DNA of 25,887 nucleotides from IMG/VR virus record IMGVR_UViG_3300022748_000040, positions 1 to 25,887 of that record; one strand, written 5' to 3'. Position 1 is the first letter of the stretch. Each line of letters opens with the position of its first letter. The DNA comes from a virus. Position numbers and translations under genes: made by a program. Below, in pieces: positions 678 through 25,365 of this stretch. The notes under the pieces are model-generated. The model worked only from the letters and a program-made list of their open reading frames with translations, had not been told where the DNA came from and searched no databases.

Positions 678-2562
678 CGGTTCGTTTTTATACCGCCAGG
701 CGTTTCGCGCTGGACTGACACCCGACCCCGACTTCACCGTCAGCGAGTGGTCGGACGAATTCCGCATGCTGTCGCAAAAGGCGTCGGCTGAACCTGGCCG
801 CTGGCGCACCGAGCGCACGCCGTACCTGCGCGAGATCATGGACGAACTGTCGCCGAACAGCCCTGTCGAACAGGTGGTGTTCATGGCTGGCGCCCAGGTG
901 GGCAAGTCCGAAACCGGCAACAACTGGCTGGGCTTCGTGATCAGCCACGCACCAGGCCCCATGATGCTGGTGCAGCCGACGGTCGACACGGCAAAGCGAT
1001 TTTCCAAGCAGCGCCTGGCGCCGATGATGGAAGAAACCCCGATGCTGAAAGAACGCATCGCGGACCAGCGTTCACGCGATGGCGGCAACACGCAGCTGGT
1101 GAAGGAATTCCAGGGCGGTGTTCTGGTTGTCACCGGCGCGAACAGCGCGGTCGGCCTGCGTTCGATGCCGGTGCGTTACCTGTTCCTGGACGAAATCGAC
1201 GGTTTCCCTGTCGACGTCGATGGCGAAGGCGACCCCGTCATCCTGGCGATCCGACGGACCACCACGTTCGCGCGGCGCAAGATTTTCATGTGCAGCACGC
1301 CGACGGTGAAGGACGTCAGCCGCATCGAGCGCGAATTTAACGTGTCCGACCAGCGGCGCTATTTCGTCCCCTGCCCGCACTGCGACCACATGCAGTGGCT
1401 GCGCTGGGCGCAGATCAAGTGGCAGGACGACGACCCGACGACGGCAGCCTACGCCTGCGAAGACTGCGGCACGCTGATCGAGGAACGCCACAAGACCAGC
1501 ATGCTGGCCAAGGGCGAATGGCGCGCTACGGCCGAAGGCAATGGCCGCATCGCAGGCTTCCACCTGTCGTCGCTGTATTCACCGCTGGGCTGGAAGTCCT
1601 GGCGTTCCATCGTCGAAGAATTCATCGCGGCCAAGGGCGACGCACCGCTGCTGAAGGGCTGGGTGAACACGGTCCTAGGCGAAACCTGGGAAGAAGAATA
1701 TTCGGCGAAGGTCGGGGCCGACAGCCTGCAGGCGCGCGCCGAGTTCTACGACCCGAAGGTGCTGCCAGCCCGCGTGCTGGCCGTCACCGCTGGCGTGGAC
1801 GTGCAGGACAACCGCCTGGCCGTGTCACTGTACGGGTGGGGCCGCGATGAAGAATGCTGGGCCGTGGCGCACCAGGAAATCTACGGCGACCCAGCGCGGC
1901 CCGAAGTCTGGCGCCAGCTGGACGACATGCTGGGCACGCCCATCGAGCACGAACTGGCCGAACCGCTGACCGTGATGGCGGCCTGCATCGACAGTGGTGG
2001 CCACCACACCCATGACGTCTATGCCTACGCGCGCGAACGCCGGTCGAAGCACTACTACGCGATCAAAGGCCAGTCGCAGCGCGGCAAACCGGCCATCGGA
2101 AAGCCCAGCCGCGTCGACCTGAACTGGAAGGGCAAGGTGATGAAGGGCAGCGCCGAAGTCTGGCCGGTGGGCGTCGACACCGTGAAGTCGGTGATTTATT
2201 CGCGCCTGAAGCACAACGAACCAGGCGCTGGGTACGTTCACTTTCACGCTGAACTGACCGCCGAGTATTTCGCGCAGCTGACGGCTGAAAAGCAGATCAC
2301 CAAGTACGTGAAGGGCTTCCCCGTGCGCGAGTGGGTGAAGAAACCAGGCGCGCGCAACGAAGCGCTGGACACGGCGGTGTATGCCTATGCCGCGATGCAG
2401 TCGCTTTACATGCGGTTCAACCGGCGCACGATCTGGGAACAGTTCGAACGGGCATTAAAATTGAAACCCGTGAAAGACGGTGAAAATGCCGCTGAATTGG
2501 CGGTCAAACCTGCGAAGCCTATAATCCCGAAAAAGCGCAATTCATTCGTCACGAACTGGTAA
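664..2562 (+). CDS. Terminase large subunit (lambda GpA family)
   Basis: This is the packaging motor ATPase and cos endonuclease, 632 residues, close to lambda gpA (641). The Walker A-like motif GAQVGKSE is at residues 76-83 and Walker B LFLDEID at 173-179. A zinc-ribbon-like pair, CPHC (237-240) and CEDC (265-268), follows, typical of this family. The nuclease domain shows GVDVQDNRL (D379), CIDSGG (D443) and a late acidic motif NEALDTAVYAYAA near the C terminus, consistent with an RNase H-like two-metal site. The start ATG lies inside the small subunit gene, implying translational coupling. All expected motifs are present and the frame is intact, so the gene looks functional. Confidence 0.97.
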   Translation: MVQPDGSFLYRQAFRAGLTPDPDFTVSEWSDEFRMLSQKASAEPGRWRTERTPYLREIMDELSPNSPVEQVVFMAGAQVGKSETGNNWLGFVISHAPGPMMLVQPTVDTAKRFSKQRLAPMMEETPMLKERIADQRSRDGGNTQLVKEFQGGVLVVTGANSAVGLRSMPVRYLFLDEIDGFPVDVDGEGDPVILAIRRTTTFARRKIFMCSTPTVKDVSRIEREFNVSDQRRYFVPCPHCDHMQWLRWAQIKWQDDDPTTAAYACEDCGTLIEERHKTSMLAKGEWRATAEGNGRIAGFHLSSLYSPLGWKSWRSIVEEFIAAKGDAPLLKGWVNTVLGETWEEEYSAKVGADSLQARAEFYDPKVLPARVLAVTAGVDVQDNRLAVSLYGWGRDEECWAVAHQEIYGDPARPEVWRQLDDMLGTPIEHELAEPLTVMAACIDSGGHHTHDVYAYARERRSKHYYAIKGQSQRGKPAIGKPSRVDLNWKGKVMKGSAEVWPVGVDTVKSVIYSRLKHNEPGAGYVHFHAELTAEYFAQLTAEKQITKYVKGFPVREWVKKPGARNEALDTAVYAYAAMQSLYMRFNRRTIWEQFERALKLKPVKDGENAAELAVKPAKPIIPKKRNSFVTNW

Positions 2563-3135: not shown

Positions 3136-4722
3136 ATGAAATTTTGGCCATTCGGCAAAAAGGGCGACCAGCCCAAGAAGGCTGGCAAACGCATGTTCGG
3201 CGGCGCGACGTTCAACCGCTTGACCAACGACTGGAACGCCAGCATCGGCACCAGCCAGGACAGCGAAATTCGCAGCAGCTTGCGCGTGTTGCGCAACCGA
3301 ACCCGCCAGCTGGCGCGTGACAACGACTGGGTGAAGAACGCACTGCGCGCGATCCAGAACAACGTGATCGGCACTGGCGTGAACATGCAAATGCAGGTCA
3401 AGATGACCCGCCAGCGCAACGGCAAGGTGATGAACCAGGCCGTGAACGAAGCCATCGAAAACGCCTGGGCACAGTGGTGCAAGGCGCAGAACTGCCACAC
3501 CGCTGGCCTGCTGAATTTCAGCGACATCGAGCGCTTGCTGATCACATCGGCTGCCGAAAACGGCGAAGTGCTGGTGCGCATGGTGCGTGGCACTGCGTTC
3601 GGCACGTCACCCGTGCCGCTGGCGCTGGAAGTGATCGAATCCGACCAGCTGATGGACGAGCGCAACGGCACTGCCGACAATGGCAACATCATCCGCATGG
3701 GTGTCGAGAAGAACGAATGGGGCCGTCCGGTCGCATACTGGTTTTACCCGTACCATCCAGGCGATTACCTTTTCAAAACGGTCGAACTGTCGAAGTACAA
3801 GCGCGTCGACGCCGACGAGATCATCCACCTTTACAAGCATGAACGCCCAGGCCAGACCCGTGGCGTGCCGTGGTTCGCGTCTGCGCTGAAGCGCATGCAC
3901 CAGGTGGCCGGTTTCGAAGAAGCCGAAGTCGTGGCCGCGCGCGCCAGTGCGTCGATCATGGGTTTCATCCAGACGCCCGACGGCGAACTGCAAGACGACG
4001 GTGTGCAGGACAACCAGCGCGTTTCGGATTTCAGCCCAGGCAAGATCGAAGCGCTTGGCCCTGGCGAGACATTCAAGGAATTCGTGCCGAACCGTCCTGG
4101 CGGCAATTACGACCCGTTCGTGCGCGCCCAGCTGCGTGCCGTGGCCGCTGGCGTGGGTGTTTCGTATGAGACACTGAGCAAGGACTATTCGCAGTCGAAC
4201 TACAGCAGCAGCCGACTGGCCTTGTTGGACGACCGCGACAACTGGCGTTCACTGCAAGCCTGGATGATCCAGAATTTCCACCAGCGCGTTTTCGAGGAAT
4301 GGCTGGACATGGCCGTTTTGTCTGGCGCGTTGGACCTGCCAGGCTATGAGATCAACCCCGACGCCTACCGCGCTGTGCGCTGGATGCCGCGCGGCTGGTC
4401 GTGGGTGGACCCCGCGAAAGAAGTGGCCGCTTACAAAGACGCGGTGCGCTGCGGTTTTATGACCCAGTCCGAAGTGATCGCCCAGTCTGGCGGCGACATC
4501 GAGGAAGTGCTCGAGCAACGTCGGCGCGAAGTCGAAATGGCCGAAGGCATGGGCCTGGTGTTCGACACCGACACGGCGCAGGTCGACGACAAGGGGCAGC
4601 TGCAGGCAACTGTGGCGCCTGCTGTCGCAGCCGAAGAAGCTGCGCCTGGTGACGCAACCGACGACGCAGCAGCAGCGCCAGCCGAAGACGAAAGTGCCGA
4701 CGCATCATCGGATGCCACCTAA
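3136..4722 (+). CDS. Portal protein (lambda gpB family)
   Basis: The 528-residue protein matches the lambda-family portal in length (gpB 533) and character: an N-terminal basic segment, then RSSLRVLRNRTRQLARDNDW and VKNALRAIQNNVIGTGVNMQ, which are hallmark portal sequences, and RGVPWFASALKRMHQVAGF in the stem/wing region. The dodecameric ring forms the DNA channel at the capsid vertex and docks the terminase. The last ~45 residues are Ala/Asp/Glu-rich and probably disordered; lambda gpB is trimmed terminally during maturation, so this tail could be removed as well. A good RBS (AAGGGG) precedes ATG 3136. It is followed by a 54-nt gap containing a promoter. Confidence 0.95.
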   Translation: MKFWPFGKKGDQPKKAGKRMFGGATFNRLTNDWNASIGTSQDSEIRSSLRVLRNRTRQLARDNDWVKNALRAIQNNVIGTGVNMQMQVKMTRQRNGKVMNQAVNEAIENAWAQWCKAQNCHTAGLLNFSDIERLLITSAAENGEVLVRMVRGTAFGTSPVPLALEVIESDQLMDERNGTADNGNIIRMGVEKNEWGRPVAYWFYPYHPGDYLFKTVELSKYKRVDADEIIHLYKHERPGQTRGVPWFASALKRMHQVAGFEEAEVVAARASASIMGFIQTPDGELQDDGVQDNQRVSDFSPGKIEALGPGETFKEFVPNRPGGNYDPFVRAQLRAVAAGVGVSYETLSKDYSQSNYSSSRLALLDDRDNWRSLQAWMIQNFHQRVFEEWLDMAVLSGALDLPGYEINPDAYRAVRWMPRGWSWVDPAKEVAAYKDAVRCGFMTQSEVIAQSGGDIEEVLEQRRREVEMAEGMGLVFDTDTAQVDDKGQLQATVAPAVAAEEAAPGDATDDAAAAPAEDESADASSDAT

Positions 4723-4738
4723 GTTCACGGCTTACAAT

Positions 4739-4767
4739 TTGACCAGTTGATTCACTGACCTGATAAT
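4739..4767 (+). promoter_or_regulatory. Sigma70-like promoter for the Dps-like gene
   Basis: TTGACC (4739-4744) is 5/6 to the -35 consensus and GATAAT (4762-4767) is 5/6 to the -10 consensus, with an ideal 17-nt spacer. A start site 6-8 nt after the -10 box would fall at about 4773-4775, only 2-4 nt before the ATG at 4777, so the transcript would be near-leaderless. No Shine-Dalgarno sequence is present in the gap. It is the best promoter match noticed in the window, and it lies in one of the few gaps of the late operon. Confidence 0.7.
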
Positions 4768-4776
4768 CCGCGCCAT

Positions 4777-5163
4777 ATGGAAGCTATTGCAAAACTAATC
4801 ATCACGCTGATGCACGCAGGCACGGCAGCCCATGTGCTGCACCTGCAGTGCCAGGGTGTCGGCAGCTTCGCGCGCCACAAAGCGCTGGATGATTTCTACA
4901 AAGGCATCATCGACAAGGCCGACAGCATCGCCGAAACGTGGCAGGGCCGCAATCGACAGATCATCGTCGGCTATCCTGATGGCTATGTGAACCCGCCACA
5001 AGACGGCAGCAAAGAAGCGGTGCTGGAATTCCTGGCCGCACTGCTGGCGTTCGTGGACGAAACCCGCACCGAAGTCGACCAGCGTTCTGAAATCCAGAAC
5101 CTGATCGACGAAGCGACTTCGTTCATCGACGACACGATTTACTTCATCGAACAGCTACAATAA
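4777..5163 (+). CDS. Dps-like (ferritin superfamily) mini-ferritin, phage-encoded
   Basis: The 128-residue protein has four predicted helices and no signal peptide. The first two helices carry H22, H34, D38, D49 and E53. This spacing (12, 4, 11, 4) is exactly that of the Dps ferroxidase centre (E. coli Dps H51, H63, D67, D78, E82). G27, F31 and Y41 also sit where Dps has conserved Gly, Phe and Tyr. Helices C and D follow (SKEAVLEFLAALLAFVDETR and the segment ending DDTIYFIEQLQ). It lacks the Lys-rich N-terminal DNA-binding tail of Dps and has a shorter BC connection (YPDGYVNPPQDG). Expected activity is Fe(II) oxidation with peroxide and iron storage, if it forms a dodecamer. It resembles a widespread phage protein family that I recall as DUF5856, unverified. 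It lies between portal and protease-capsid, with its own promoter, and ends 4 nt before the next start. Confidence 0.7.
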   Translation: MEAIAKLIITLMHAGTAAHVLHLQCQGVGSFARHKALDDFYKGIIDKADSIAETWQGRNRQIIVGYPDGYVNPPQDGSKEAVLEFLAALLAFVDETRTEVDQRSEIQNLIDEATSFIDDTIYFIEQLQ

Positions 5164-5167
5164 GCCC

Positions 5168-7177
5168 ATGACAAAACAAGCACACGCAATGCCGTGGCAG
5201 GCAAAACCTGTCGAAGCCACGCCTGAAGCCAAGCGCGAAGTGGAGTTCACCGAGGTGGACGGCCAGCTGCGCTTTAAGCTGCCGCAGCTGGTGCGCGCGA
5301 TGTCCGAAGGCGACCTGGCGGTCGACCAGGACACCCGCACGCTGTCGTTCAGCTTCAGCAGCGAATACCCCGTCGAACGCTGGTTCGGCAACGAAGTGCT
5401 GTCGCACGCCGCTGGCGCTGCCGACTTGTCGCGCTTGAACGATGGCGCCCCGCTGCTGTTCAACCACAACATGGACGACATCATCGGCGTGATCGAGAAA
5501 GCCAGCATCGACACGAAGACGAAGCGCGGCATGTGTACCGTGCGTTTCGCGAACACGCCCCAGGCCGACGAGTGCATGGGCATGGTGAACGACAAGATCA
5601 TGCGGAACGTGTCGTTCGGCTACCGCGTGAACGAAATGGACATCACCGACGCAAAATCGGACATCCCCACATATACGGCGACCAGTTGGACGCCTTACGA
5701 AATTTCGCTGGTTACAGTGCCAGCCGACCCGTCCATCGGTGTCGGTCGGTCTGTGACTGCGGAAGAACGCGACGTACTTGTACGTCGTGATCACCAACCC
5801 GCTGCTGCCGCAGCAAATCCTCCAGAGGTCACAATGACGCAAGAAAACACTGCGGCTGCACCAGCCGTTGACATCAAACTCGTGCAGGGCGAGGCTATTG
5901 CAGCCGAGCGCGCACGCATCGCAACCATCGACGCCTTGGGCAAAAAGTTCGGCAACGAAGACCTGGCACGCAGCTTGGTCGAAGGTGGCCGTTCTATCGA
6001 CGAAGCCCGCGCCGCTTTCTTGGACAAGATCGCCGACGCAAAGCGCACCCCTGTCACCGAAGGCGCATCCGATCTGCCTTTGACTGACAAGGAAAAGCAA
6101 GAGTACAGCCTGGTTCGCGCCATCCGCGCCCAAGTGACTGGCAACTGGAAAGATGCCGGTTTCGAGCGTGCATGTTCCGAAGCCATCGCCAAGCGCAGCG
6201 GCAAAGACACCGCCGGTTTCTTCATGCCAATGAACATCAGCATGCGAAACGCATCGTCTGGCGCCTACGCTGTCGGTACAGCCGGTTCTGGCACTACTGG
6301 CGGCACCTTGGTGGCCACCAACTTGTTGGCTTCCGAGTTCATCGAAGTGTTGCGCAACAAGGCCCGCGTGGTTCAGTTGGGCGCCCGCATGTTGTCCGGC
6401 TTGGTCGGCAACGTGGACATCCCACGTCAAACCAGCGCCACCACCACCTACTGGGTGTCGGAAGGTGCAGACGTGACTGAAGCCGAAGCAGCCTTCGACA
6501 AACTCAGCTTGTCGCCCAAGACTGTTGGCGCACGCAGCCAGATGACCCGCAACATGATGATGCAGTCGACACCGGACATCGAAATGATCGTTCGCAGCGA
6601 CTTGGCAGCACAGTTGGCCTTGGCCATCGACTTGGCAGCTATCGCAGGCACTGGTTCAAACGGTCAGCCCACTGGCATTTTGAACACCAGCGGCATCGGT
6701 TCTGTGGCTGGCGGCACCAACGGTGCAGCCATCACCATTGACCACCTGATCGACTTGGAAACCCAAGTGACCACAGCCAACGCGGACGAAGGCAACCTGG
6801 CCTACTTGTCGAACAGCAAAGTCGTCGGCGCCTTGAAGAAACTCAAGTCGACCACCGGCCAGTACCTGTGGACCGACTACCCAGGCGGCCAGCGTTCTGG
6901 CACCCCTGGCGAGATCAACGGCTACACCTTCGGTCGTTCGAACCAAGTGTCTAGCACATTGACAAAGGGCACCGCCTCCGGCGTCGCGTCTGCTGTCTTG
7001 TTCGGCAACTGGTCTGAATTGATCATCGGCGAGTGGGGCGTTTTGGAAGTCCTGCCTAACCCATACGGTTCTGGCTACAACAACGGCAGCGTGGACATCC
7101 GCGCCTTGCAGTCTGTTGACATGGGCTTGCGCCACGCCAAGTCGTTCTCTGCAATGACTGACGCATTGACTGCCTAA
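5168..7177 (+). CDS. Fused prohead protease (S78) and HK97-fold major capsid protein
   Basis: Residues ~25-195 form an HK97-type prohead protease with the expected catalytic triad candidates: H100 in LLFNHNMDD, S149 in RNVSFGYRV and E178 in TPYEISLVTVPADP. Residues 196-222 are a linker. Residues 223-669 are a major capsid protein: a helical delta/scaffold domain (~235-350), then a capsid body beginning near 360, with LVATNLLASEFIEVLRNKAR in the N-arm region and NPYGSGYNNGSVDIRALQSV near the end. The protease would cleave the scaffold domain after assembly. The ORF begins 4 nt after the Dps-like gene with no good SD, suggesting coupling. An internal in-frame ATG (5834) with its own SD could yield unfused capsid protein. 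Such fusions are known in other proteobacterial phages. Confidence 0.93.
   Translation: MTKQAHAMPWQAKPVEATPEAKREVEFTEVDGQLRFKLPQLVRAMSEGDLAVDQDTRTLSFSFSSEYPVERWFGNEVLSHAAGAADLSRLNDGAPLLFNHNMDDIIGVIEKASIDTKTKRGMCTVRFANTPQADECMGMVNDKIMRNVSFGYRVNEMDITDAKSDIPTYTATSWTPYEISLVTVPADPSIGVGRSVTAEERDVLVRRDHQPAAAAANPPEVTMTQENTAAAPAVDIKLVQGEAIAAERARIATIDALGKKFGNEDLARSLVEGGRSIDEARAAFLDKIADAKRTPVTEGASDLPLTDKEKQEYSLVRAIRAQVTGNWKDAGFERACSEAIAKRSGKDTAGFFMPMNISMRNASSGAYAVGTAGSGTTGGTLVATNLLASEFIEVLRNKARVVQLGARMLSGLVGNVDIPRQTSATTTYWVSEGADVTEAEAAFDKLSLSPKTVGARSQMTRNMMMQSTPDIEMIVRSDLAAQLALAIDLAAIAGTGSNGQPTGILNTSGIGSVAGGTNGAAITIDHLIDLETQVTTANADEGNLAYLSNSKVVGALKKLKSTTGQYLWTDYPGGQRSGTPGEINGYTFGRSNQVSSTLTKGTASGVASAVLFGNWSELIIGEWGVLEVLPNPYGSGYNNGSVDIRALQSVDMGLRHAKSFSAMTDALTA
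5770..5787 (+). repeat. Perfect inverted repeat (hairpin) in the protease-capsid linker
   Basis: CGACGTAC (5770-5777), two bases, then GTACGTCG (5780-5787) form an 8-bp perfect stem. It lies 46 nt upstream of the internal capsid start codon, within linker codons that are under little protein constraint. It may be a structure influencing ribosome passage or RNA processing; no T-run follows, so it is not an intrinsic terminator. Confidence 0.5.
5824..5836 (+). promoter_or_regulatory. Internal Shine-Dalgarno and in-frame start for the major capsid protein
   Basis: AGAGG (5824-5828), a 5-nt gap and ATG (5834-5836) are in frame with the protease-capsid ORF (residue 223). The signal is better than that of the full-length start at 5168. 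Initiation here would make a 447-residue capsid precursor (MTQENTAAAPAVDIK...), close to the size of a normal HK97-type capsid protein with its delta domain, allowing far more capsid protein than protease to be made. Confidence 0.6.
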
Positions 7178-7193: not shown

Positions 7194-7216
7194 GGGGCGG
7201 CAGTGCCGCCCCTTTT
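7194..7216 (+). terminator. Intrinsic terminator after the capsid gene
   Basis: GGGGCGGC (7194-7201), loop AGT, GCCGCCCC (7205-7212) and TTTT (7213-7216). The perfect 8-bp all-GC stem followed by a short T-run lies 16 nt after the capsid stop codon. Because connector genes follow in the same direction, it is probably a partial (attenuating) terminator unless it is overridden by antitermination. Confidence 0.8.
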
Positions 7217-8127: not shown

Positions 8128-8283
8128 ATGGACGAATTCGAAGGATTTGGTGGCAGCTACAACGTCGACCCGAAAACGGGCGCACGCACGCTGATCGAGC
8201 GCACGCAAGAGGCCGCCAGCCAGGACAACGTGGAGCCAGCCCAGGTTCCTGCAGAACAACCCGTAACCGCCGAAGGTGCCTGA
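8128..8283 (+). CDS. Small acidic protein, unknown function
   Basis: The 51-residue product, beginning MDEFEGFGGSYNVDPKTGAR, is hydrophilic, with an acidic, Pro/Ala/Glu-rich C-terminal half and no cysteines or membrane segment. A GAGG sequence precedes ATG 8128 at a usable distance, and its stop lies 1 nt before the tail-tube ATG, so the reading frame fits the tight operon. No family is recognised. It might be a minor tail or chaperone-like accessory; that is speculation from context only. Confidence 0.65.
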   Translation: MDEFEGFGGSYNVDPKTGARTLIERTQEAASQDNVEPAQVPAEQPVTAEGA

Positions 8284-8284
8284 T

Positions 8285-9214
8285 ATGCTATTAACCAGAA
8301 AACGCGTAATTCTCGCGAAGATTGAAACCACCTACGGCGTCGACAGCACCCCGACTGGTGCGACGAACGCGATCCTGATTCGAAACCTGAACGTGCAGCC
8401 GCAAGCCACGCAGCTGGTCGGTCGCGAAATCATCCGTCCGTTCTTGGGCAACTTCGAACAACTCGAGGCCAGCACCCACGTCGAACTTGACTTCGAAGTC
8501 GAAGCCGCTGGTTCTGGCGCTGCTGGCACTGCGCCTGGATATGGTGTTCTGCTTCGTGCATGCGGCTTGTCCGAAAACATCACGGCCAGCACTAAGGTCG
8601 ACTACAAACCTGTTTCGTCGGCCTTCGAAAGCGCAACGATTTATTTCAACGTCGACGGCGTCTTGCACAAGATCACCGGTTCGCGCGGCAACGTCGAACT
8701 AACGATCAACAGCGCGCAAATCCCCGTGTTCAAATTCAAGTTCGTGGGCATTTACAACGCGCCTACCGACACCGCACTGCCGACCGTGTCTTACAGCAGC
8801 TTCCAGACCCCACTGGTGGCCAACAGCACAAACACACCGGCTTTCAGTTTCTTCGGCGCCACCCCCGTGTTGCAAGACCTGTCGTTCCAGTTGGGCAACC
8901 AGGTGGACTACCGCACACTGATCGGCACGCAGTACGCCCAGATCACCGACCGCAAGGCCGCTGGCCAGGTCACGTTCGAAGCCAACACCATCGCGACGAA
9001 AGACTGGTTCACCACTGCACTGGCGAACGGCCTTGGCGCGTTGTCGATCACACACGGCACGACTGCTGGCAACAAAATCATCCTGTCGTCCAGCACGGTC
9101 GATTTGCTGCAGCCTACGTACACCGACAACAACGGCGTTCAAATGCTGCAGATCGGCTACGTGATGACGCCGAGCACTGCAGGAAACGACGAATTTAACT
9201 TGTCGATCCAGTAA
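8285..9214 (+). CDS. Major tail tube protein
   Basis: This 309-residue protein is Thr/Ser/Val-rich and beta-dominated, as expected for the subunit that polymerises into hexameric tube rings. It starts LTRKRVILAKIETTYGVDST, a recurrent N terminus of phage tail tube proteins, and has a central segment (FESATIYFNVDGVLHKITGS) and RKAAGQVTFEANTIATKDWF typical of this family. The ATG at 8285 was preferred over the GTG at 8276 because GAAGG lies 9 nt before 8285 and almost touches 8276. An intrinsic terminator follows 20 nt after the stop codon. Confidence 0.9.
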   Translation: MLLTRKRVILAKIETTYGVDSTPTGATNAILIRNLNVQPQATQLVGREIIRPFLGNFEQLEASTHVELDFEVEAAGSGAAGTAPGYGVLLRACGLSENITASTKVDYKPVSSAFESATIYFNVDGVLHKITGSRGNVELTINSAQIPVFKFKFVGIYNAPTDTALPTVSYSSFQTPLVANSTNTPAFSFFGATPVLQDLSFQLGNQVDYRTLIGTQYAQITDRKAAGQVTFEANTIATKDWFTTALANGLGALSITHGTTAGNKIILSSSTVDLLQPTYTDNNGVQMLQIGYVMTPSTAGNDEFNLSIQ

Positions 9215-9234
9215 GCGACAACGAGTTCAACAAC

Positions 9235-9263
9235 GCAGCGGCCACCAGGCCGCTGCTGCTTTT
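9235..9263 (+). terminator. Intrinsic terminator after the tail-tube gene
   Basis: GCAGCGGCC (9235-9243), loop ACCA, GGCCGCTGC (9248-9256), then TGCTTTT. The 9-bp perfect GC stem has a modest T-run, so termination is probably partial. It separates the abundant tail-tube message from the less abundant tail chaperone and tape measure genes. Confidence 0.7.
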
Positions 9264-9277
9264 AAGAAGGGGAAAAA

Positions 9278-9619
9278 ATGTTCGTAATTTCACAAAAGAC
9301 TTCATACACCTGGCCGGTCGCCGTCGAATTCCCAGTCGACGGTGGCAAGAGCGAGAAACAGACGTTCGACGCTGAGTTCAAGCGCGTGCCCCAGTCGCGC
9401 ATGGCCGAGATCAAAGCGAAGATTGAAAGCGGCGACATCACCGACATTGACCTGGCGCGTGAAGTGCTGACCGGCTGGGCTGGTGTCACCGATGCCAATG
9501 GCGACGCTGTGCCGTTCGCTGAAGGCACCCGCGACCAGCTGCTGGACGTGCCACTGGTGGCGTCTGCTGTCGTGATGGCTTGGATGAATTCTCTCACCGG
9601 CGCAAAGCGAAAAAACTAG
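9278..9619 (+). CDS. Tail assembly chaperone, short form (gpG-like)
   Basis: The 113-residue protein starts MFVISQKTSYTWPVAVEFPV and contains EFKRVPQSRMAEIKAKIESG and DIDLAREVLTGWAGVTDANG, the pattern of siphophage tail chaperones that bind the tape measure protein before tube assembly. A very strong RBS (AAGAAGGGG) precedes the ATG. The ORF ends CGA AAA AAC TAG, where the heptamer A AAA AAC lets a fraction of ribosomes shift to -1 and read the downstream T region. Its location between tail tube and tape measure is the canonical G position. Confidence 0.92.
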   Translation: MFVISQKTSYTWPVAVEFPVDGGKSEKQTFDAEFKRVPQSRMAEIKAKIESGDITDIDLAREVLTGWAGVTDANGDAVPFAEGTRDQLLDVPLVASAVVMAWMNSLTGAKRKN

Positions 9620-9654
9620 AAGACGCCGCACGCCACTGGGCAGGTGGCGGCGTC
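9610..9654 (+). promoter_or_regulatory. Programmed -1 ribosomal frameshift signal (G/GT)
   Basis: The slippery heptamer A AAA AAC (9610-9616) is in the correct phase of the G frame and stands immediately before the TAG. Five nucleotides later, GACGCCGC (9622-9629) pairs perfectly with GCGGCGTC (9647-9654), with an additional inner CAC/GTG pairing, giving a strong GC hairpin of the kind that stimulates slippage. The -1 frame then stays open to 9954. Confidence 0.9.
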
Positions 9655-9954
9655 AAAGACGAAATGGCCGACGACTTGGCCGTGATGGGTGCATCATCGG
9701 ACATCGTCGTCGCCGTTCAGGATTCAAGCCCTAGTCGCGACTTCGAAGTCCACGAAGAAAACTGGCCGGTGGTGGCCATGTTCATGCGCCTGCAGACGCA
9801 ATGGCTGACAAGCATGGGCGGCGTGGTCGGCCTGAATTACCAGTCCATCGAGTTCTTGTTTAAAATCGAAGGTGTCGAGAACCAGCGCGAAATGCTGGCC
9901 GACTTGCAGGTCATGGAAGTGACCGCGCTGCAGATCATCAACTCCAAAGACTGA
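9616..9954 (+). CDS. Tail assembly chaperone frameshift extension (T part of GT)
   Basis: Reading continues in the -1 frame after the slip and adds 112 residues, giving a 225-residue GT fusion (join 9278..9616, 9616..9954). The extension starts LEDAARHWAGGGVKDEMADD and is helical and acidic, with EENWPVVAMFMRLQTQWLTS and a final helix ADLQVMEVTALQIINSKD. In lambda, G and GT are required in a fixed ratio and are absent from the virion; the same role is expected here. An ATG at 9580 lies in this frame but has no persuasive RBS, so the extension is probably made only by frameshifting. Confidence 0.88.
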   Translation, partial: LEDAARHWAGGGVKDEMADDLAVMGASSDIVVAVQDSSPSRDFEVHEENWPVVAMFMRLQTQWLTSMGGVVGLNYQSIEFLFKIEGVENQREMLADLQVMEVTALQIINSKD

Positions 9955-23935: not shown

Positions 23936-25150
23936 CTAACCCCGCACCGTGCGGCGCAGCCACCAGGCCCAGCGTGCCATCGCCTGGCGCAGCTGTGGCC
24001 GGTAGTCGGTGTGGTCGTAATGCTTGGACCCCGTGTCGCTGACCTTGGCATGCTGCTGGATCAGATCGCGCGTGAAGCGGTCGACGCCTGCGTCCCCTGC
24101 CCGCGATTTCCACGTCCGGCGCAGGTCACGCGTCTGGAACGGTTCGACACCTTCGCGTTCAGCCCACCGACGCAGCGCCCGATTGATCGACGTGTCTTGG
24201 ATGGTGAACAGCTGGGCACCTTTCCTGGTGGCCATCAGCAGGCGCAGCACACGCACAGCCTGTGGCGGCAGTGGGACTTCGTGTTGCGCCCGCTTCGTTT
24301 TCGTCTTTTCAGCAGGCATCACCCAGGCCATCGCAGCCAGGTCGACTTCGCCACGTTCGATGCGCAGGGTTTCGCGCACGCGCTGCCCGCACGACAGCAG
24401 CACGCGAATGGCTGCTGCGGTTTCAAGATCAAAGCCTGGGCCATCCAGGTCGCGCCACAGCGCGCGGATTTCAGCCGCCGACAGGTTACGTTCGCGAGGT
24501 TTGGACGCGCCGCTGTCCTTGGGCACCACGTCCACGGGGTTCGACTTCAGACCCCAGTCCTGGCGGTCTTTGGCACGATAGTCATGCGTCGCGGCTGCCG
24601 CCCAGTTGAACGCTGCCGACAGATAGGCCCGCATGTGGTCGGCCATCGACCTGGCGCCACGGTCGTAAATCCGGCCAAGCAGAACCGAAATTTCGTTCGG
24701 CGTGATTGTGGGCACCAGGCGCTGGCGCCCCAGCTTGTCGGCTGCGTTGTTCTTACCCGTCAGCAGCTGCAGTTCGACTTCAGCGGCGCTGCTGCGCCCC
24801 TGCTGGCGCATGTGGGCCACGTACCCCTGGAACATCCGTTCGACGGTGGCGTCGGCCTGTTCGATGGCCAGGGCGCGCGGGTCACGACCTTCGGCCAGGG
24901 CGTCACGCACCTGGGTTTCGTACAGCCTGCGGGCCTTCACCAGCGGCAGATCGGGACACCGGCCCAGCGACTTTTTGCGCAGCTTCCCGTCGACGTACCA
25001 GGCGCCGAACCAGGTGGCCGACGTGCGGCCATCATTGTGACGAACGACCAGCTGCAGGCTGCCAGTGCCGCGACCAGCGGCGCCATCGTTCAGCACAATC
25101 TCGGGCTTTTTTGACTTCAGCGCGGCATTGACCTGGCGGGCACTTAGCAT
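23936..25150 (-). CDS. int: Tyrosine integrase
   Basis: The 404-residue protein has an N-terminal DUF4102-like arm-binding domain (residues 1-95: GSLQLVVRHNDGRTSATWFG... LGRCPDLPLVKARRLYETQV), a core-binding domain (~100-215) and a catalytic domain. Catalytic residues: R257 (CGQRVRE), K in EKTKTKRAQ (~283-286), H290 (HEVPL), R344 (RDLRRTW), H367 (QQHAK) and Tyr378 (KHYDH). The first residue of the HxxR box is Arg341 instead of His. RBS AGGGGG stands 5 nt before the ATG, partly inside a small hairpin. It should recombine the tRNA-Lys core located ~170 bp upstream with the host tRNA gene. Confidence 0.93.
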   Translation of the reverse strand: MLSARQVNAALKSKKPEIVLNDGAAGRGTGSLQLVVRHNDGRTSATWFGAWYVDGKLRKKSLGRCPDLPLVKARRLYETQVRDALAEGRDPRALAIEQADATVERMFQGYVAHMRQQGRSSAAEVELQLLTGKNNAADKLGRQRLVPTITPNEISVLLGRIYDRGARSMADHMRAYLSAAFNWAAAATHDYRAKDRQDWGLKSNPVDVVPKDSGASKPRERNLSAAEIRALWRDLDGPGFDLETAAAIRVLLSCGQRVRETLRIERGEVDLAAMAWVMPAEKTKTKRAQHEVPLPPQAVRVLRLLMATRKGAQLFTIQDTSINRALRRWAEREGVEPFQTRDLRRTWKSRAGDAGVDRFTRDLIQQHAKVSDTGSKHYDHTDYRPQLRQAMARWAWWLRRTVRG

Positions 25151-25191: not shown

Positions 25192-25317
25192 AGCCGAAGT
25201 CAAAAGCCCAAACCGGCGCTGGCACTTACAGTGGGAATTCATAGGAAATCACGCGTTTACAAAGGCTTGATGGGATATTCTGGGAACCAGCGTGATGCGC
25301 GATGATGGCATCAGGGT

Positions 25318-25365
25318 TGACTTTTAATCAGTAGGTCCAGGGTTCGAGTCCCTGCGCGCTCACCA
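25318..25365 (+). other. attP: Attachment core: 3' half of tRNA-Lys(UUU)
   Basis: The sequence holds an anticodon loop CTTTTAA (25321-25327), the 3' anticodon stem (TCAGT), variable loop (AGGTC), a perfect T arm (CAGGG, TTCGAGT, CCCTG; 25338-25354), acceptor strand CGCGCTC, discriminator A and encoded CCA (25363-25365). Upstream there is no D arm and no GAGCGCG acceptor partner, so it is not a complete tRNA gene. A 3' tRNA fragment next to an integrase is the standard sign of a tRNA-targeting att site: integration would rebuild an intact host tRNA-Lys gene. Confidence 0.85.

Follow-up and report, generated by a model that had tools for sequence, protein, structure and literature searches.

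A sigma70-like promoter element lies between the portal and capsid genes of the 25,887-base IMG/VR virus record analyzed here (this whole stretch is called the window). We regard the site as probably an internal promoter of the host-sigma type that belongs to the capsid gene and behind which a Dps-like gene was captured as a near-leaderless first cistron; its activity is predicted from the sequence. The promoter is probably an old one of the capsid gene, because it also precedes that gene in sister phages whose portal-capsid junction has no ferritin-like gene.

Genomic context and the predicted promoter

All 25,887 bases of the window are matched by a longer record, G001 (IMGVR_UViG_3300022746_000010), and are identical throughout. 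G001 is 37.9 kb long with identical 121-base ends, and closes as a 37,791-base circle; primase-helicase and exonuclease genes are among the ten ORFs scanned in its remainder. The late operon runs from the terminase small and large subunits, the head-tail joining protein, the lambda-type portal and the DUF5856 (ferritin-like) gene to the fused S78 protease-HK97 capsid, the head-tail attachment protein, the tail terminator and the tail tube, followed by a chaperone pair and the tape measure. The assignment of the two genes between tail tube and tape measure as the tail chaperone pair is probable and comes from a weak Pfam match, and the tail tube family, phrog_290, bears the name 'minor tail protein' in PHROGs. 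Since an integrase gene is present, the phage is probably temperate. The features that matter here are:

2497..2525, forward strand: a further promoter-like site (TTGGCG-17-TATAAT), within the terminase large subunit gene at its 3′ end
3136..4722, forward strand: lambda-type portal gene (PF05136, E 2.4e-108), the neighbor upstream of the promoter
4739..4744, forward strand: −35 hexamer TTGACC
4762..4767, forward strand: −10 hexamer GATAAT
4775..4775, forward strand: A predicted from the sequence as transcription start, the 8th base past the −10 hexamer, giving a 2-nt leader
4777..5163, forward strand: DUF5856 gene for a Dps/ferritin-like protein of 128 aa, first cistron behind the promoter
5164..5167, forward strand: gap of 4 nt without a Shine-Dalgarno (SD) sequence, from the ferritin-like stop (5161-5163) to the capsid ATG
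5168..7177, forward strand: fused S78 prohead protease and HK97-type major capsid gene (PF04586, PF05065)
7194..7216, forward strand: GC-rich hairpin (8 bp, loop AGT) with TTTT, directly 3′ of the capsid gene
8276..9214, forward strand: tail tube protein gene (PF18906, E 1e-15)
9235..9266, forward strand: intrinsic terminator-like hairpin (9 bp) with a T-rich tail, 3′ of the tail tube gene
23936-25150, opposite strand: integrase gene

A tRNA-Lys(TTT) (25288-25365) adjoins the integrase gene and is possibly the attachment site. The heptamer A AAA AAC (9610-9616) resembles what we take to be the usual tail-chaperone frameshift; it lies just 5′ of the stop of gene 9278-9619, placed for −1 slippage into the 9580-9954 frame.

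TTGACC, 17 nt, GATAAT, 9 nt and ATG (4777-4779) are found in the sequence exactly as the preliminary description had claimed, and the hexamers are sigma70-like. Portal and ferritin-like genes are 54 nt apart, as the portal stop codon ends at 4722. The purine A4775 is most likely the start of the predicted transcript. A purine is found 8 bases past the −10 hexamer in the window and in three relatives considered below (L016, L010 and L015), and 7 bases past it in a fourth (L115). The claimed lack of an SD sequence at the ferritin-like ATG was borne out, with an anti-SD duplex energy of +0.1 kcal/mol vs. a random median of −2.9 kcal/mol (800 positions). A missing SD is not special in the window: the energy exceeds −1 at 5 of the 22 positions examined (162, 4777, 5168, 8276 and 9960), a set that includes several unverified starts and one position (20541) that is not a start codon. 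The operon had also been described as otherwise packed with overlaps, which is only partly right; other gaps exist, e.g., 9215-9277.

A consensus scan of 12 kb on both strands gave 4 promoter-like sites vs. 3.1 (sd 1.6) in shuffled sequences. The count equals the shuffle expectation and therefore says nothing about the promoter; what stands above chance is its rank, position and conservation. Over both strands, its score is the second best of the 37.9-kb G001, and the junction site ranks best in G002 and only fourth in G003. These scores are built on E. coli frequencies, which may not be those of the host. The pattern TTGACN-N16-18-(T/G)A(T/C)AAT, composed after the sites were seen, occurs once each in G001, G002 and G003 (38-40 kb), always at the junction, with 0.05 expected.

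The portal-capsid junction is not unique, because it is equaled by the site at the terminase 3′ end: TTGGCG-17-TATAAT is the best-scoring site of the genome. Its TATAAT is also present in G003 and L010, via ATA Ile codons, and coding constraint may lie behind it. Two further candidates were rejected. An operator in the spacer was considered from an imperfect CAGT...ACTG palindrome, which by eye is absent from L016. A second leaderless capsid promoter, with TACAAT 6 nt before the capsid ATG in the window, L016 and L015, has no acceptable −35 by eye.

The junction in related phages

Among 89 loci with a capsid or portal relative, the ferritin-like gene stands beside the portal gene in three: the window (L014), L016 and L128. 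A first ferritin-like scan of the genome contigs gave no match, an extra contig scan with the capsid alignment gave four loci, and 11 of the 399 genomes scanned in one order have a capsid relative at E ≤ 1e-100.

In L016 (genome G003, 39.9 kb) an orthologue whose protein is 62% identical occupies the same place, behind the promoter TTGACC-18-GATAAT-8-ATG. Its hexamers are identical to those of the window at 12/12 positions, and the spacer has diverged in sequence and by one base in length. Between the two portal genes 81 of 160 fourfold-degenerate sites (51%) are identical; the probability of 12/12 identity is ~3e-4 if sites are independent and neutral, a value that does not allow for the one-base shift. 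The sigma70-type promoter proposed earlier is thus conserved in both hexamers, and the near-leaderless geometry stands as well, with a predicted leader of 0–2 nt and a distance from −10 to ATG of 9 nt in the window and 8 nt in L016. The ferritin-like start codon of the window is also backed by L016, whose gene has an SD-like GAGGG ~17 nt upstream, within the promoter spacer. The stretch CTACAATAAGCCCATG at the 4-nt gap (5164..5167) is identical in L016.

The same element precedes the fused protease-capsid gene of L010, L015 and L115, the nearest relatives from whose junctions the ferritin-like gene is absent. L010 has TTGACG-17-GACAAT-9-ATG, with the −10-to-ATG distance of the window, a portal that is 84% identical and 3.6 kb of other genes after it. 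In L015 (capsid 78% identical) the element is TTGACG-17-GATAAT-24-ATG, and 2.9 kb of other genes lie between portal and promoter; in L115 (capsid 74% identical) it is TTGACG-18-GATAAA-39-ATG, with the portal directly upstream. No ferritin-like gene was found in the 40.4-kb record of L015 or the 7.1-kb record of L010. The contigs of L010 and L115 measure 7.1 and 5.1 kb, so the gene may be present elsewhere in those phages. From the layout of the sister junctions, inserted genes sit 5′ of the promoter in L010 and L015 and 3′ of it in the window and L016.

Three loci of other lineages, L128, L037 and L038, have a DUF5856 gene between portal and capsid genes, with its ATG overlapping the portal stop by 4 nt. 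The window-type promoter is absent before these genes (best upstream scores p 0.50, 0.07 and 0.08). The promoter can hence not be called private to the ferritin-like gene, as had been proposed: it occurs before the capsid gene without that gene at the junction, and it is missing from other lineages with the order portal-ferritin-capsid. Evidence against a private promoter had been named beforehand as related phages that carry the gene and lack a conserved promoter; these three loci are of that kind, and L016 keeps the promoter. Upstream promoter scores at p < 0.05 were obtained for 8 of the 48 non-redundant DUF5856 genes kept for this count (2.4 expected), window and L016 included. The other six have different elements and do not lie beside portal and capsid genes; because they sit in other contexts, some DUF5856 genes may own promoters.

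The portal-capsid junction looks like a cargo hot spot (window 4723-5167; L010 2719-6300; L015 2128-5000): the genes inserted there vary from one sister phage to another, and DUF5856 genes are found in three separate lineages.

Junction scores were compared with 100-nt tiles of the same locus in 86 of the 89 loci (L017, L166 and L178, with too little upstream sequence, were left out), which gave p values of 0.0022 for the window, 0.0103 for L016, 0.0017 for L015, 0.0042 for L115 and 0.0178 for L010. The enrichment test used 60 non-redundant loci of the 86 scored, and its p values are slightly larger because its tiles include the junction. With a capsid identity of at least 60% (7 non-redundant loci, window included), 6/7 reach p < 0.05 at the junction (Fisher 9e-6), namely the five promoter-bearing phages described above and L120 (the elements differ); L117 misses. 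At control starts of the same loci the counts were 0/6 for the portal, 0/2 for the terminase large subunit and 2/3 for the head-tail joining gene, the last owing to the second promoter-like site. Over all loci, promoter scores are raised at the head-tail joining gene start in 10/26, and the signal in the window, G003 and L010 is the site in the terminase 3′ end. The junction reaches p < 0.05 in 2/14 loci with 50-60% capsid identity and 5/39 with <50%, i.e., 13/60 across all non-redundant loci, and most relatives below 60% show nothing.

In a tree of 39 capsid proteins, built by a quick method with SH-aLRT support only and with L010 filling only 41% of the columns, the window, L016, L010, L015 and L115 form one clade (SH-aLRT 99), within which the window and L016 pair (support 99). 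The promoter is present in 5/5 members, and the ferritin-like gene is at the junction only in the window-L016 pair; at the least, the tree requires 7 changes of the promoter label and 3 of the ferritin-like gene. The sites of the next clade, the L120/L117 group, are different and weaker (p 0.03-0.05 and 0.27-0.36). A separate clade has TATAAT- or TACAAT-type junction sites, with p 0.002-0.026 in L137, L144, L020, L179 and L187 and 0.18 in L149, and a poor −35 match in most.

The proposed transcription unit and competing explanations

In the arrangement that we favor, a capsid promoter with a captured first cistron, host RNA polymerase of the sigma70 type would read an internal promoter of the head operon, whose conserved job in the clade would be extra transcription of the fused protease-major capsid gene. 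The same transcripts would take in the connector and tail tube genes before the next terminator ends them. Between promoter and capsid gene, the window and L016 have the Dps-like ferritin gene, which would be the first cistron. With transcripts that begin ~0–2 nt before its AUG, its translation would be leaderless or almost leaderless. Translational coupling, which we consider likely, would bring ribosomes to the capsid gene, which has no SD (anti-SD energy −0.7) and lies 4 nt past the ferritin-like stop. A terminator scan of the window found none between the ferritin-like stop and the capsid ATG. With the capsid ATG 4 nt downstream and no terminator found between, the ferritin-like gene does not look like the independently expressed unit that it had been taken for.

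A hairpin behind the capsid gene was scored by a strict criterion in 23/57 non-redundant loci vs. 3/570 random windows (57 loci kept, 29 dropped), and hairpins without a T-run are visible by eye in many other relatives. As a mark of the promoter unit the post-capsid terminator was discarded: it is unlinked to the promoter (5/12 promoter-positive vs. 18/45 promoter-negative loci). A terminator comparable to that behind the tail tube gene was found in 6/7 promoter-positive vs. 1/8 promoter-negative loci (Fisher p 0.010, kinship not corrected), in a test designed after ten rows had been seen. It comprised 15 non-redundant loci; those dropped had no tail tube match or <110 bases beyond it (L128, by length). 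L172, the one promoter-positive locus that lacks such a terminator, carries additional DNA behind its tail tube gene. Hairpins of equal strength occur in 4/225 random windows, and the counterparts in promoter-positive relatives have diverged in sequence. In our reading, the segment from capsid to tail tube is a nested unit in which the stop behind the capsid gene is leaky.

The reading of the gene as a moron, in which the promoter would serve the ferritin-like gene alone for expression in the lysogen or early in infection, independently of the late operon, is unlikely, and we set it aside. The gap, the promoter and the near-leaderless geometry before the gene are indeed kept in L016, a naturally leaderless phage mRNA exists (lambda cI; PMC8138138), and promoter scores at p < 0.05 are more frequent than expected before DUF5856 genes (8/48 vs. 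2.4). Promoter and gene mismatch both ways, however: L010, L015 and L115 have the promoter without the gene at the junction, and L128, L037 and L038 have the gene in the same place without the promoter (p 0.50, 0.07 and 0.08). The position of the capsid ATG, 4 nt past a gene with no terminator found directly after it, also speaks against a separate unit. Lysogenic or early expression as such, and the earlier idea of two expression modes, neither gain nor lose from these comparisons.

That an intergenic gap holds a functionless promoter-like string by chance would agree with the number of such sites in 12 kb, which is that of shuffled sequences. Chance is nevertheless quite an improbable explanation: the element is found at one and the same junction of five related phages whose spacers have diverged, its hexamers are 12/12 identical between the window and L016 against a neutral identity of 51%, and the junction is enriched when portal and terminase starts are not. 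Least probable, in our judgment, is a relic, that is, an ancestral capsid promoter made irrelevant in the window lineage since the ferritin-like gene intervenes, with both genes expressed from the long late transcript. L128, L037 and L038 do keep the same gene order without the promoter. Against a relic, neutral sites have diverged between the window and L016, yet both retain the hexamers and their distance to the ATG. Translation of the ferritin-like and capsid genes of the window from the late transcript also looks poor, because both are without an SD and the ferritin-like gene has no overlap with the portal stop.

A broader version of the capsid-promoter reading is more speculative, and we hold it to be doubtful. 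In it, a clade of temperate siphoviruses would carry a nested capsid unit, made up of the host-type promoter, the post-capsid hairpin and the tail-tube terminator, and in some members also a captured leaderless Dps-like first cistron. This would supply an iron- or DNA-protecting protein in fixed proportion to capsid, and the leaderless start would set capsid translation by coupling.

Known systems and the DUF5856 protein

Morons of lambdoid prophages are extra genes between conserved late genes, with a promoter in front. The ferritin-like gene of the window is alike in both respects; unlike in those morons, its promoter is common to the capsid gene of relatives that lack the gene at the junction, and no terminator was found directly after the gene. 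The private-looking promoter of an accessory gene can thus belong to the capsid gene behind it, and a gene-by-gene 'moron' reading of promoters can mislead. Sister phages with and without the inserted gene make the capsid-promoter reading directly testable.

A local promoter of the major capsid gene is described for the T7-like phages T7 and LUZ100 in PMC10134795. By that account, the promoter lies inside the structural block just before the capsid gene and a terminator-like hairpin lies just after it, as here, and the capsid gene gets its own transcription, to which we liken the predicted activity in the window. The T7-like capsid promoter is phage-specific, whereas the hexamers reported here are sigma70-like, as for a host polymerase, and the head operon around them is lambda/HK97-like and belongs to an integrase-bearing phage; a Dps-like first cistron, found in two genomes here (window and L016), is a further difference. 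If active, the site would be the host-sigma counterpart, in such a phage, of the T7-like local capsid promoter, and capsid production would be linked to a ferritin-like protein and to leaderless translation.

The naturally leaderless lambda cI mRNA (PMC8138138) has an AUG start, no SD, and its start codon at or next to the transcription start, and the window gene is alike by its predicted start. cI is a repressor, whereas the window gene precedes the capsid gene as first cistron and has a geometry that allows a predicted leader of 0–2 nt. In the literature searched, nothing was found on DUF5856, on a phage Dps-like or ferritin-like auxiliary gene, on a ferritin moron with promoter and terminator, or on phage leaderless transcripts by ONT-cappable-seq. 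PMC7567579 does no more than suppose that a late operon has internal promoters, and PMC7354516 concerns host dps.

The DUF5856 gene product of the window belongs to phrog_858 and scores 61.8 bits against PF19174 (curated cut-off 34.6). In a 28-row alignment 12 residues are invariant (H19, H22, H34, L37, Y41, D49, E53, G57, R97, N108, D111 and T120, window numbering). H22, H34, D49 and E53, invariant in 28/28 rows, align with identical residues of neutrophil-activating protein (E 0.21, the best match by sequence, with no close solved relative found), and by their spacing we take them to be Dps-type ferroxidase ligands. The AlphaFold2 model has four helices (pLDDT 95.4, pTM 0.88), and its best PDB match is a Dps (8pv9; TM 0.70, E 5e-3), with none at E ≤ 0.001. 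From sequence and model, an iron-oxidizing, Dps-like role is likely for this protein. It has in common with Dps the four-helix ferritin-like fold and is shorter, with 128 aa vs. 147-169 residues in the Dps chains listed.
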